A DNA stretch of 32,854 nt, taken from Actinophytocola sp. (lineage in GTDB: Bacteria > Actinomycetota > Actinomycetes > Mycobacteriales > Pseudonocardiaceae). The DNA lies in NCBI GenBank assembly GCA_009379975.1, contig WHSS01000029.1, positions 1 through 32,854 on the forward strand, read 5' to 3'. The translations under genes were made by a program, and so were the position numbers. Below the pieces are notes generated by a model, which was given only the letters and a program-made list of their open reading frames with translations, made no database searches and was not told where the DNA came from. This document shows, piece after piece, positions 853-32,854 of this stretch. Position 1 is the stretch's first letter, and each line of letters opens with the position of its first letter.

Positions 853-2973
853 GTGGCCCAGCGCGGCTTTGCTCCGTCAACACCGCTGCGCGGAGCCGGC
901 GCCGAAGCCGGGGCCGGGGCCGGGGCGACCCTCACCGCACCGCAGCCACAGGTCAGCGGGCCCGCGCCGGCCGGGCAGCCTGCCTACCGTGCTTACCGGC
1001 CCGAGTTGCAGGGGCTCCGCGCCTTGGCCGTCATTCTAGTAGTCTGCTATCACGTCTGGCTGGGCCGCATTTCCGGTGGCGTTGACGTGTTCTTCGTCAT
1101 CACCGGCTTTTTGATCACCGGTCAGCTTCATCGCGCGATCACCCGGGGCGGCATCCGGTTCGGCCCGCTGTGGGGCCGCATCATCAAGCGGCTCTTCCCC
1201 GCGGCCTTGACCGTGCTCGCCGGTGTCATCCTCGCCGGCTACCTCTTCTTACCGCAGCACCGCTGGTTCAGCACCATCGAGCATGTCTTCGCCTCCGCGC
1301 TCTACTTCGAGAACTGGCAGCTCGCGGCCGAGTCGACGGACTACTTCGCGCAGCAGAACTCGGCGAGCTTGCCGCAGCACTTCTGGTCGCTGTCCATCCA
1401 GGGCCAGTTCTATCTCCTGATGCCGATCGTCGTCGCCCTGGTGGCGTTCGTGGCGCGCAAAGCAGGCTGGGGCCTGCGGAGCCCGTTGCTGGTGACCATG
1501 ACACTGCTGTTCGCGGGGTCGCTGGCGTACTCGGTGTGGCTCACCGCGACGAATCAGCCGCTGGCCTACTTCCACTCGCTGACCAGGGTGTGGGAGTTCA
1601 TGCTGGGTGGCCTGCTCGCGTTGTCGATCAATCACCTCGTGCTGCCCCGCGGCTTGCGTATCCTGCTCGGCTGGCTCGGTGTCGCCGGGCTGGTGTGCTG
1701 CGGGTTGCTGCTGCAGGTCGGCACCGTCTTCCCCGGTTATGCCGCGTTGTGGCCGACGATGGCCGCGGTGCTGGTGCTGCTCGCCGGGGCGACGGAGAGC
1801 AGGCTCGGCGCCGATCGGTGGCTGAGCTCCCGGCCGCTGGAATTCCTCGGCGACATCAGCTACTCGCTGTACCTGTGGCACTGGCCGGTACTGCTGATGT
1901 ATCTGACGGTCCGGCATCAGGAGGAGGTCGGTCTCAAGGGCGGCGCGGTGATCATCGTGGCTTCGTTCGTCCTGGCGATCGCGACGTACTACCTCATCGA
2001 GGAGCCGGCGAGGAGGTCGCGGTTCGGGCTCAAACGTACGTGGGGCGGGTACGCGTTCGGTGCGGTGCTGCTGGTGCCGGTGCTCCTGCTGACGCAGGGC
2101 TGGCAGCTCCACAGTGAACGGCTGGCGACCGCCGGAGCCGTCGCGGCCGGTGATCCGAACTACCCGGGTGCGATGGCGATCGACGGCGGCGCGGCGGACA
2201 TGGCGGCCTATGACGCCGAGCCTGCCCCGTCGTTGATCAATCTTCCGTATGAATGGAACAAGTTCTCCGATCGCGAATGCGAGATGTCCCGGCGCGGTCA
2301 CAAGATGAAGATCTGCAAGACCACCAACGGTGCCACCGCCAAGAAGCGGATCGTGGTCGTCGGCGACTCGCATGCGCAGCTCTATACCGGCGCGCTGGAT
2401 CCGCTGGTGGAGCCCAACGATTGGCAGGCATACTCGATCATTCGGGGCGGCTGCCCGTTCTCGACGGACTCCGAGCTGATCAAGGAAAGCCAGGCCTGCG
2501 TCGATTACAACGCCGCGCTCGTCGAGGAGTTGCGGGAGATCGATCCCGATGCCGTGGTGACCATGGCGAGCTATCAGGTGAGCAAGGGGCGGACCGAGCG
2601 CACCCCGGAAGGTTTCGTGGCGCAATGGCGCAAGCTGGCGAGCGCCGGAATTCCGGTGGTGGCCTTTCGTGACAACCCTCGTTACGACTTCGAGCCCTCC
2701 GCCTGTGCTGATGATCTAGGGGCGCGTTCGCCGCGATGCTCGGGCGTTCGCGCCGAGCTGTACCCCGAGGTGCCGTCCTACGAGCGGATTCCCGGCGTGC
2801 CGGGCAACGTGCGATTCGTCGACCTGAGTGACTACTTCTGCGATGGGCCCACCTGCCCGCCGATCATCGGCAACGTGCGCGTGTACATGGACGATAACCA
2901 CATCACCCAGACGTACATGAACACCCTGGCGCCCGTAATGGAGCGCGAGCTGACTACGGCCCTTGGCTGGTGA
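853..2973 (+). CDS. Membrane O-acyltransferase, acyltransferase_3 (OafA/YrhL type) with C-terminal SGNH domain, copy 1
   Basis: Predicted to move acyl (often acetyl) groups across the membrane onto a cell-surface glycan; the acceptor cannot be read from sequence. The 706 residues comprise a Pro/Ala-rich cytoplasmic N-terminus (1-45), an acyltransferase_3 core with about ten membrane helices (about 48-410) opening with YRPELQGLRALAV, His67 in CYHVW and Asp78 in GGVDVFFVITGFL, a linker, and an extracytoplasmic SGNH domain (about 470-706). In the SGNH domain GDSHAQ (504-509) carries the Ser and DDNH (680-683) the Asp/His. The GTG start is set by GGAGGA 5 nt upstream. Its stop overlaps the start of the second copy as GTGA. 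Length and architecture are normal for OafA-like enzymes. Confidence 0.9.
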   Translation: MAQRGFAPSTPLRGAGAEAGAGAGATLTAPQPQVSGPAPAGQPAYRAYRPELQGLRALAVILVVCYHVWLGRISGGVDVFFVITGFLITGQLHRAITRGGIRFGPLWGRIIKRLFPAALTVLAGVILAGYLFLPQHRWFSTIEHVFASALYFENWQLAAESTDYFAQQNSASLPQHFWSLSIQGQFYLLMPIVVALVAFVARKAGWGLRSPLLVTMTLLFAGSLAYSVWLTATNQPLAYFHSLTRVWEFMLGGLLALSINHLVLPRGLRILLGWLGVAGLVCCGLLLQVGTVFPGYAALWPTMAAVLVLLAGATESRLGADRWLSSRPLEFLGDISYSLYLWHWPVLLMYLTVRHQEEVGLKGGAVIIVASFVLAIATYYLIEEPARRSRFGLKRTWGGYAFGAVLLVPVLLLTQGWQLHSERLATAGAVAAGDPNYPGAMAIDGGAADMAAYDAEPAPSLINLPYEWNKFSDRECEMSRRGHKMKICKTTNGATAKKRIVVVGDSHAQLYTGALDPLVEPNDWQAYSIIRGGCPFSTDSELIKESQACVDYNAALVEELREIDPDAVVTMASYQVSKGRTERTPEGFVAQWRKLASAGIPVVAFRDNPRYDFEPSACADDLGARSPRCSGVRAELYPEVPSYERIPGVPGNVRFVDLSDYFCDGPTCPPIIGNVRVYMDDNHITQTYMNTLAPVMERELTTALGW

Positions 2974-5057
2974 CCGTGCTGAAAGACGCACTCAGTCCGC
3001 CCAGTGGACTGAAAGGGCCATTCACTCCGCCCAGTGGACTGAAGGCGTCTTTCAGCGCGGGTGGCTATCGTCCGGAGTTGCAAGGCCTGCGGGCGCTCGC
3101 CGTGACGCTGGTGGTCTGTTATCACGTGTGGCTCGACCGGGTTTCCGGTGGCGTCGACGTGTTCTTCGTCATAACCGGCTTTCTGATTATCGGCCAATTG
3201 TCTCGCGCGATCGAACGGGGCGCGATCGCGTTTCGGCCGATGTGGGGCCGGATGATAAGGCGGCTATTTCCGGCCGCGCTGACGGTGCTGGCCGCGGTGA
3301 TGGTCGCCGGCTTCTTTTTGTTGCCTGAGCACCGGTGGCTGCAGACCATTCGCGAGGTATTCGCCGCCGCGTTGTATGGGGAGAATTGGCGGCTGGTTGC
3401 CGATTCGACCGACTACTTCGCGCAGCACGACACGGCAAGCGTGGTCCAGCACTTCTGGTCGCTGTCCATCCAGGGTCAGTTCTACCTGGTGATGCCGATC
3501 GTGGTGGCACTCCTCGCCGGCATGGCGCACCGCGCCGGATGGCGGCCGCAGCGGGTGCTGACGCTCGCTGTCGCGGTGCTATTCGCCGCTTCGCTGTCCT
3601 ATTCGGTGTGGCTGACCGGCGCGGATCAGGCCATGGCGTACTTCCACTCGCTGACCAGGGTGTGGGAGTTCATGCTGGGTGGTCTGGTCGCGCTGCTCGG
3701 TCACCGCGTCGTGTTGCCGGTCGCCGTGCGCATTCTGCTGGGATGGCTCGGCGTCATCGCGCTGATCTCGTGCGGGCTGCTGTTGCGGGTCGGCAGCGAA
3801 TTCCCCGGCTACATCGCGTTGTGGCCGACGATGGCCGCGGTGCTGGTGCTGCTCGCCGGGACGACGGAGAGCAGGCTCGGCGCCGATCGGTGGCTGAGTT
3901 CGCGGCCGCTGGAGTTCATCGGTGACATCAGCTATTCGCTCTACCTCTGGCACTGGCCGGTGCTGGTGCTGTACCTGACCGTCACCGATCAGCAGGCCGT
4001 AGGCGTGTTCGCCGGTGCCGTGATCATCGCCGCCTCGGCCTGGCTGGCCGTGGTGACGCACTACCTGGTGGCGGAACCGGCGCGCAAGGCGCGCTTCGGC
4101 CACAGCAGCTCCGGCGGCGCTTACCGGTTGGGCTGTGCCCTGCTCGTCGCCGTGATGACCGTCGCGGGCAGTTGGATGTGGTACGGCTGGCAGCGCGTCG
4201 AGGCGGTCGCCGTGTCCGGGGACGATCCGAAGTATCCCGGTGCGATGGCGCGGGCGGGGGTCGCCGTCCACGACAAGGGCGAGGGCGCTGACGAGGGCGT
4301 TGAGCCGGGGCCGTCGATGGTCACGCTGCGCGGTGAGTTCGCGGACCTGCCGGACGGGGACTGTTCCCCCTCGCGGTACAACGAACGGATCGAGCTGTGC
4401 TCGACGCCGGACGCCGCCACCGCGACCAAGCGGGTCGTCGTGGTCGGTGACTCGCACGCGCAGCAGAACCTGGCCGCTTTGCAGCCGGTCGCGCAGCGAC
4501 AGGGGTGGCAGCTGGTGTCGATGGTCGGCGGTGGCTGCCCGTTCTCCGAACCGTCACCCGGCGTCGCGATGAGCGAGAGCTGCGTGCGGGCCAACGCCGA
4601 CCGGACCACCGAGCTCGAGCGGTTGCGGCCGGACGCGGTGGTGACCATGGCCACGTATCAGGTGCGCCAGGGCAGGACCGAATGGACGCCGCCGGGATTC
4701 GTCGCACAATGGCGCAAGCTGTCGGCGGCAGGCATCCCGGTGGTCGCGGTGCGGGATCACCCGCGCTTCGACTTCGATCCCGCGCGGTGCGCCGTCCGGC
4801 ACGGCGTCGACGCGGAGCAGTGCACCGTACGGCGTGACGAGTTCTACCGTGAGCGGCCGCCCTATACCGACATCCGCGACATGCCCGCGAACGTGCGGTT
4901 CGTCGACCTCGTCGACTACTACTGCGAGAACGAGTACTGCCCGCCGGTGATCGGCAACGTCTGGGTCTACATGGACCCCAAGCACCTCAGTGCCAGCTAT
5001 ATGAGGACGATGGCGCCGGTCATGGAGCGGGAACTGCTCGCCGCGCTGTCGTGGTGA
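2970..5057 (+). CDS. Membrane O-acyltransferase (OafA/YrhL type) with SGNH domain, copy 2, repeat-derived N-terminus
   Basis: Tandem paralogue of the preceding gene: 695 residues with the same acyltransferase_3 core (YRPELQGLRA from residue 33, His52, GGVDVFFVITGFL) and SGNH domain (GDSHAQ 493-498; Asp669/His672 in MDPKH). Identity to copy 1 is patchy, nearly complete in parts of the core and lower in the SGNH half. The GTG start overlaps the upstream stop as GTGA; GTG at 2976 is the only other in-frame start before the domain. No Shine-Dalgarno is seen, so translation is probably coupled to copy 1. Residues 4-30 are encoded by the 30-bp palindromic repeats at 2979-3055, giving 10-residue repeats LKxxxxPPSG. 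This N-terminus is unlike that of copy 1. The two may act on the same or different acceptors. Confidence 0.88.
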   Translation: MTVLKDALSPPSGLKGPFTPPSGLKASFSAGGYRPELQGLRALAVTLVVCYHVWLDRVSGGVDVFFVITGFLIIGQLSRAIERGAIAFRPMWGRMIRRLFPAALTVLAAVMVAGFFLLPEHRWLQTIREVFAAALYGENWRLVADSTDYFAQHDTASVVQHFWSLSIQGQFYLVMPIVVALLAGMAHRAGWRPQRVLTLAVAVLFAASLSYSVWLTGADQAMAYFHSLTRVWEFMLGGLVALLGHRVVLPVAVRILLGWLGVIALISCGLLLRVGSEFPGYIALWPTMAAVLVLLAGTTESRLGADRWLSSRPLEFIGDISYSLYLWHWPVLVLYLTVTDQQAVGVFAGAVIIAASAWLAVVTHYLVAEPARKARFGHSSSGGAYRLGCALLVAVMTVAGSWMWYGWQRVEAVAVSGDDPKYPGAMARAGVAVHDKGEGADEGVEPGPSMVTLRGEFADLPDGDCSPSRYNERIELCSTPDAATATKRVVVVGDSHAQQNLAALQPVAQRQGWQLVSMVGGGCPFSEPSPGVAMSESCVRANADRTTELERLRPDAVVTMATYQVRQGRTEWTPPGFVAQWRKLSAAGIPVVAVRDHPRFDFDPARCAVRHGVDAEQCTVRRDEFYRERPPYTDIRDMPANVRFVDLVDYYCENEYCPPVIGNVWVYMDPKHLSASYMRTMAPVMERELLAALSW
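2979..3055. repeat. 30-bp palindromic repeat array A (2.6 units), inside coding sequence
   Basis: Units start at 2979, 3009 and 3039 with CTGAAAG or CTGAAGG. They carry imperfect hairpin arms (for example CTGAAGG...TCTTTCAG) joined by a CCGCCCAGTGGA-type linker. The exact 30-nt period equals ten codons, so the array stays open in the frame of the second acyltransferase. The array starts 5 nt after the stop of copy 1. Array B (5063-5139) has the same length and unit order. Confidence 0.9.
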
Positions 5058-5062
5058 GGGCG

Positions 5063-5139
5063 CTGAAAGACGCTTTCAGTCCGTTCAACGGACTGAAAGC
5101 GTCATTCACTCCGCTCAGTGGACTGAAGGCGTCATTCAG
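5063..5139. repeat. 30-bp palindromic repeat array B (2.6 units)
   Basis: Units start at 5063, 5093 and 5123. The first contains the perfect hairpin CTGAAAG-ACG-CTTTCAG, and the linker contains AGTCCGTT-C-AACGGACT. Total length is 77 bp, the same as array A, and it starts 5 nt after the stop of acyltransferase copy 2, exactly as array A follows copy 1. It may act as a transcription terminator before rimO, but it lacks a T-run. It is also open in the matching frame from a GTG at 5054, although no acyltransferase follows. Confidence 0.9.
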
Positions 5140-5191
5140 CGCGCGGTGGTCTCTCACTGGGCGCGTTCGGCTGACGGCCCCGCCCGCCAGC

Positions 5192-11386: not shown

Positions 11387-12271
11387 CTACCGCGTCGGCG
11401 CTTCCAGATCGAGCGCATCCTGATCGAGCGCATCCTGATCGAACTCGGTCACGCTGGACCGTTGGGGCGGCTCCAGGTGATGCCTGCCGCGGCGAGCGGA
11501 GCGCAGCATCCTCGCGAGCACCAGGTTGAACCCTAGTGAGATCTCCCTGCCGCCCGGCGTCGCCCACTCGTGAATGGGAGTGCAGGATCCGGCCGCCTGC
11601 TGCACCGCGAGCCGATCCGGCAGCGCGACCGGCATGACCAGCGAGCCGAAGCTCTCCCGGAGCTCGCTGATCCGGTACAGGTGCTCGTGGGAGCGGACGC
11701 GGAACTTGTTGACCAGCACGCCGAGCGCCCGCAGCTGGGGATTCTCCTCCCTTCGGGTCCGTTCGATGGCCTCGAACGCTCGCTGTGCCCCGGACACCGC
11801 GTACATGGTCGGTTCGGTGACCAGCAGGGCGCCGTTGGCGGCGAGCAGCGCGGAGCGGGTGAGCCTGCCAAGCGACGGCGGGCAGTCCAGGATGATCAGG
11901 TCGTAGTACGGGTCGGCGGCGGGGTCGGCGTACCACGCCGTCGCCAGTGAGAGGTTCTCCAGCCCCGGTGTGTTCGCGGCGGGTTCGTTGATGAGCTCGA
12001 TGTCCTCATTGCCTGCGAGGACGTCGAGCTGATCGCTCCAGGCGCTGGCCGAGACCGCCCTGCGGAGCATTGACGGGCGGGGGGTGGCGAGGACTTCGGC
12101 AAGACCGACTTCGGCGCCGGCCGGATCGAGCGTCGCGGTCGCATTGCCTTGCGGATCGAGATCGACCACGAGCGCGCGAACGCCACGACGCAGCGCTGCG
12201 GATGCGAGACCCAGAGCGACGGTTGTCTTGCCGACGCCACCCTTCAAGCTGAGGACGGCGACGATGTGCAC
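11387..12271 (-). CDS. ParA/Soj-family ATPase (orphan)
   Basis: 294 residues of a MinD/ParA-type P-loop ATPase. The deviant Walker A is KGGVGKTT (residues 10-17), the A' motif VVDLDPQGN has Asp37 and Asp39, and the Walker B-like segment is [13 protein letters not shown]. Such proteins position DNA or other cargo on the nucleoid or membrane. No parB or other partner is next to it, so its cargo is unknown. The chosen GTG at 12271 gives the usual [11 protein letters not shown] start but has no Shine-Dalgarno; ATG codons at 12340 and 12337 would add about 23 residues. The C-terminal tail contains [11 protein letters not shown], produced by a 15-bp tandem repeat near 11406-11436. Confidence 0.82.
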
Positions 12272-32808: not shown

Positions 32809-32828
32809 ACGACCCTTGTTCCAACGGA

Positions 32829-32854
32829 CTGAAAGCGTCTTTCGCTCCGCTCAG
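32829..32854. repeat. 30-bp palindromic repeat family, third locus (cut by window edge)
   Basis: CTGAAAG-CG-TCTTTCGCTC and the CCGCTCAG linker start match the units of the arrays at 2979 and 5063; AACGGA just before it (32823-32828) matches their linker end. The array continues beyond the window, so its unit number is unknown. Confidence 0.85.

Follow-up and report, generated by a model that had tools for sequence, protein, structure and literature searches.

Known palindromic repeats and comparison with the present element

Rickettsia palindromic elements (RPEs) are known both from intergenic DNA and as in-frame insertions in conserved protein genes, whose enzymes tolerate them (PMC2229807). 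REPs are high-copy palindromes that reside chiefly in gaps flanked by convergent or co-directional genes, and a REP end often contributes the stop codon. Some copies fall inside open reading frames, including at the N-terminus, and two species can have one at the same position (PMC3733652). In two Xanthomonas species, recB has different REPs at roughly one and the same position (PMC3733652), a parallel to the fbiC linker described below. QMITE1 and QMITE2 of Coxiella favor the 3' ends of genes, where they overlap the C-terminal coding region and supply stop codons (PMC5896051).

The element studied here was found in a window of 32,854 nucleotides (the whole stretch of DNA that was analysed), which is contig C133 of a 4.74-Mb draft genome of Actinophytocola sp. 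in 297 contigs, 86% complete. It resembles RPEs in having in-frame copies in conserved genes, internally in fbiC and cobG and at the N-terminus of an acyltransferase (acyltransferase 2). RPEs are 105 to 146 bp long and belong to Rickettsia, whereas the present elements are 53 or 83 bp long, belong to an actinobacterium, and favor gene 3' ends, only a few copies having been found within genes. As host and length differ and the systems were compared by description, the relation to RPEs is best regarded as an analogy only.

With REPs the element shares high copy number, palindromic structure, placement in convergent gaps, stop-codon supply and intragenic copies. In contrast to REPs, its ends read GCGC...GCGC and carry no GTAG or CGTC tag, the palindrome is longer, and the unit is 30 bp. 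No Y1 tyrosine transposase gene (RAYT) flanked by elements was detected in the 86% complete genome, and a Y1_Tnp transposase was on this ground rejected as partner of the element; the three Y1_Tnp matches of the genome are IS200/IS605-like, with no element in the stretches retrieved around them. The 3'-end preference and the stop-codon supply are common to QMITEs and the present element, which differ in sequence and host, and the available portion of the QMITE source reports no N-terminal fusion (PMC5896051).

A search of the open-access literature returned nothing relevant on such repeats in Pseudonocardiaceae or Amycolatopsis, and the sole passage on Actinomycetota in the available text of a 2025 REP survey names other genera. 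Within the searchable literature, the element family appears to be undescribed. The kind of behavior, like that of REPs and RPEs, is already known; the family appears to be new.

The repeat element and its family

The 83-bp palindromic element at 2976-3058 (plus strand) is supported by TRF, genome search, profile and RNA folding. TRF (score 95) resolves it into 30-bp tandem units spanning 2979-3043 and a third, incomplete unit that extends to 3055. A second 83-bp copy, the 3'-end element of acyltransferase 2, is located at 5060-5142 (plus strand; TRF, profile, direct repeat), and a third, at 32821-32854 (plus strand; profile match, sequence), is interrupted by the contig end. TRF and the profile assign the arrays at 5063-5139 and 32821-32854 to the same family as the units at 2979-3055, as the sequence-only reading had proposed. 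The contig ending inside an element copy suggests that the repeats broke the assembly.

Both complete window copies are exactly 83 bp with the outer bases included. The family consensus starts with GCGCTGAAAGACGC and ends with GCGTCTTTCAGCGC, indicating that the element is one long palindrome; these ends are terminal inverted repeats, a feature of MITEs. The copy at 2976-3058 reads GTGCTGAAAGACGC...GCGTCTTTCAGCGC. Its predicted RNA fold has an energy of -56.8 kcal/mol (z -8.6), and that of one 53-bp copy -49.6 kcal/mol (z -12.5). The two window copies lie within a 146-nt direct repeat (2914-3059 and 4998-5143, 78%); they are themselves 88% alike, which is no more than random copies of the family. 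Elsewhere in the window, at 11398-11442, three near-identical 15-bp units (GCGCATCCTGATCGA) stand in tandem at the overlap of two minus-strand ORFs.

The core pattern had 155 matches in the genome and none when the pattern was reversed, which is far more than chance would give. A profile built from single-unit copies detected 141 distinct elements in 589 kb of stretches from the same genome, a lower limit and not a density since the stretches were picked around matches; the same 589 kb reversed gave no match. The elements fall into size classes of about 83 bp (109 elements) and about 53 bp (30 elements). With at least 141 dispersed near-perfect palindromes, most of them outside genes, the family has the general features of REP/MITE-like repeats, and the array at the acyltransferase pair is one copy of such an element (53 or 83 bp) spread through a Pseudonocardiaceae genome.

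Among 120 sampled genomes of the same family, Pseudonocardiaceae, the strict core pattern matched in one. This sole outside match, in another genus (G062, L103 1487-1538), is a 53-bp element flanked on both sides by the 3' end of a gene. A looser DNA search detected related elements in Haloechinothrix halophila (G003, E 2.8e-9) and in G006. In the latter, also a different genus, a related palindrome with a GCGCTGAAAGACGCTTTCAG-type end occurs many times, for example at L317.

Placement and reading frames of the element

Gene calls were made with a purpose-written caller based on codon usage. Elements were present in 45 of 72 gaps between convergent gene pairs, compared with 6 of 64 divergent gaps. 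At 45 of the 132 adjoining gene 3' ends, about a third, the element's TGA is the stop codon of the gene. This stop is the TGA within the element's own CTGAAAG at 33 ends and lies one 30-bp unit earlier at the remaining 12; in several of these loci it is the same TGA, the first unit of the 83-bp copy having diverged. The preference for convergent gaps and the stop-codon supply indicate that these are 3'-end elements, and the copy at 2976-3058 is such an element of acyltransferase 1, in the position typical of the family.

Most 83-bp copies (87 of 110) are open in four of the six frames, giving a chance of about two in three that a copy in a permissive linker is open. The ten-codon length of the unit does keep the frame of acyltransferase 2 open, as had been noted from the sequence, but this is no special fit to this gene, since the 30-bp unit is family-wide and most copies are open. 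No design for coding need be assumed for the element.

The acyltransferase pair and its origin

Acyltransferase 1 (853-2973) and acyltransferase 2 (2970-5057) are plus-strand paralogues, each with an AT3 domain fused to an SGNH domain (PF01757 and PF19040). The upstream gene has an ordinary, non-repeat N-tail. The frame of acyltransferase 2 comprises 695 open codons, the array included, confirming that the array lies inside its open frame. A candidate GTG start at 2970-2972 overlaps the TGA of acyltransferase 1 at 2971-2973 (GTGA overlap), also as previously read. A second candidate, GTG 2976-2978, is the first codon of the element and differs by one base from the consensus GCG of the family copies. 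The in-frame translation of 2976-3058 corresponds to residues 3-30. Just past the element, at 3066-3098, starts the conserved block YRPELQGLRAL; BLASTP and the alignment place the beginning of the conserved domain at residue 33, in agreement with the earlier claim. From Y33 of acyltransferase 2 onward the paralogues are 61% identical, and the local BLASTP alignment stops short of the earlier residues.

The gene order acetyltransferase, one acyltransferase, rimO was found in Haloechinothrix halophila, Amycolatopsis arida and two Actinophytocola bins. No element was present in the short gap before rimO in these four relatives, and their N-tails are unrelated to the element-coded tail; conservation of the repeat-coded N-terminus in orthologues, which had been suggested for checking, was thus not observed. 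An upstream start and a tail were present at all 26 homologous loci, with tails of about 7 to 50 residues. As these tails have no conserved sequence, the N-tail is a tolerant place, and the element-coded tail looks like a tolerated replacement of the usual one.

The two acyltransferases are sisters on the tree with modest support (81/60), nested in a clade with Haloechinothrix and the two Actinophytocola bins that is supported at 100/100. In both genes, 5 nt separate the stop codon from the element's CTGAAAG. Of 132 other gene ends, a single one has this offset, although the probability that two ends picked at random share an offset is 0.083. The pair probably arose by tandem duplication of a gene together with its 3' element, which is the simplest route. 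The element would have spread through the genome mostly to sites just downstream of genes, and the copy 3' of acyltransferase 1 would then have become the 5' end of the tandem paralogue. The duplication junction would have joined the element's end to codon 33, leaving acyltransferase 2 with no trace of the usual N-tail or start and with a frame that opens at GTG 2970 or GTG 2976. It is likely that the element copy following acyltransferase 1 now forms the 5' end of the paralogue and is read through into the conserved block.

The genes may instead have been in tandem already, with an element inserted between them later and displacing the start of acyltransferase 2, which would result in the same N-terminus. 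Elements do stand singly at many gene ends where no duplication occurred, and the two window copies, at 88%, are no closer than random copies. The identical 5-nt offset after both stops argues against this order of events, as does the sequence between the element and codon 33, where no trace of an earlier tail is left. Later insertion is therefore the less probable course, at well under even chances, and with the modest sister support and the 0.083 probability of chance agreement duplication is not proven over it.

Translation start of acyltransferase 2

No in-frame ATG, GTG or TTG occurs between 2979 and TTG 3078, which falls within the conserved YRPELQGLRAL block. This agrees with the sequence-only reading that no ATG or GTG start follows 2976 before the domain. 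The only standard starts are GTG 2970 and GTG 2976, and with either GTG residues 4-30 are element-coded. Read-through of the array is accordingly forced by the sequence, barring a non-standard start codon, and as far as sequence can say the N-terminus of acyltransferase 2 is a translated repeat. The claim of an N-terminus derived from a repetitive element is thereby supported; the notion of a wandering intergenic array was set aside, as the array belongs to the 3' end of acyltransferase 1.

A non-standard start at CTG 3009, CTG 3039 or TTG 3078 would make most or all of the element an untranslated 5' leader. In-frame CTGs are available at 2979, 3009 and 3039 in addition to TTG 3078, and a downstream start is the usual objection to REPs at gene starts in other species (PMC3733652). 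Against such a start, TTG 3078 would delete R34, P35 and E36, which are invariant, and the available CTGs sit inside the element, so that part of it would be coded anyway; the upstream start and tail at all 26 homologous loci point the same way. CTG start codons are rare. A start downstream is thus unlikely.

Sequence reading found no ribosome-binding site at the usual spacing before GTG 2970 or GTG 2976, and translation of acyltransferase 2 would probably be coupled to termination of acyltransferase 1. In the AlphaFold model, pLDDT is below 50 for residues 1-31 and a helix begins at residue 35; this low pLDDT is weak evidence of disorder, because no homologue in the alignment covers residues 1-31. 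The tail may be a neutral disordered segment ahead of the membrane domain.

Functionality of acyltransferase 2 and the assembly

Acyltransferase 2 has both domains of an acyltransferase-3/SGNH fusion with R-x10-H (R41, H52), GDSH (493-496) and DxxH (D669/H672) intact; these residues are invariant in 14 homologues, as are R34, P35, E36, Q38, G39 and R41 of the conserved block. Differences between the paralogues are distributed over codon positions 1, 2 and 3 as 27, 22 and 47%, a coding-type pattern. By its sequence, the gene looks functional.

It is very improbable that acyltransferase 2 is a pseudogene or silent copy whose fused frame yields no protein. Its branch is longer (0.51 versus 0.32 for acyltransferase 1), and a scan covering the sigma-70 type detected no promoter-like site of that type near its start. 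However, 695 open codons at 61% identity would be unexpected for a pseudogene, and the substitutions are of the coding type with all catalytic residues kept.

An assembly error joining unrelated flanks through the repeat, conceivable in a 297-contig draft in which the window contig itself ends within an element, can hardly be the explanation, because the element runs on its 3' side directly into acyltransferase 2, so that an element stands before the domain regardless of which left flank is correct, and the gene order is that of the relatives.

Other in-frame copies

Acyltransferase 2 is not the only gene with an element in frame. In-frame copies also lie in two genes that we take to be fbiC and cobG, from recognition of the proteins and the homologues found across the family and not from a domain search. 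The fbiC gene, on the minus strand (L267 1780-1831, G000:C111), contains a 53-bp copy. It is read in the element frame used by acyltransferase 2 and encodes DALKDAFSPLDGLKASFSAPP, which separates the two enzyme halves. The cobG gene (L203 2232-2313, G000:C216) contains an 83-bp copy encoding ERRLQSAQRTEWPIQSVERTEGVFQ and, unlike acyltransferase 2 and fbiC, uses the element's other open frame. Alignment with relatives places both copies in variable linkers.

In miaA (L168 2114-2200, G000:C159), a possible start lies inside an element: a GTG overlaps the stop codon TGA of the preceding gene, the arrangement also seen at the acyltransferase pair. This may be a second N-terminal case; it is not counted as firm, since a GTG directly after the element can start miaA. 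The intragenic copies thus comprise two firm internal cases and one firm N-terminal case. Long open frames through other arrays proved, with coding potential taken into account, to lie mostly antisense to genes or downstream of them.

The fbiC linker also varies within Haloechinothrix. In genome G072 (L352) the same linker site is occupied by a nearly intact 83-bp element that belongs to a sister subfamily, and the fbiC of H. halophila (L271) has a decayed-looking element with 18 exact bases in common with the element family of the Actinophytocola genome. In two further Haloechinothrix genomes (L350, L351) the linker is short and empty. Among 2,659 windows used for comparison, a single one matched the main consensus at least as well; at 106, its score is that of a near-intact copy, and it is presumably the cobG locus of the Actinophytocola genome itself (L295), which is part of the comparison set. 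Either the fbiC insert is old and has since been lost or exchanged, or the site received an element on more than one occasion; repeated entry is favored, as the Actinophytocola copy matches the subfamily of its own genome. Tentatively, the elements may form a Pseudonocardiaceae superfamily that is mobile and recurrently protein-coding, in which stop-poor frames and ends capable of TGA or GTG supply starts, stops and linkers, and whose subfamilies entered the fbiC linker independently in two genera; this wider picture is possible rather than probable.

Implications

The element represents an actinobacterial counterpart to Rickettsia palindromic elements. The N-terminal case appears unusually firm, judged from the reading frame, because the conserved domain follows right after the element and the usual objection to such cases, a downstream start, is nearly excluded. 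fbiC encodes a conserved cofactor enzyme, and since the element is present or absent across four Haloechinothrix genomes, one can test how an element-coded peptide is born and decays and what it costs. For annotators, some odd LK..FSP or ERR..QS stretches in the proteins of these bacteria are probably translated repeats.
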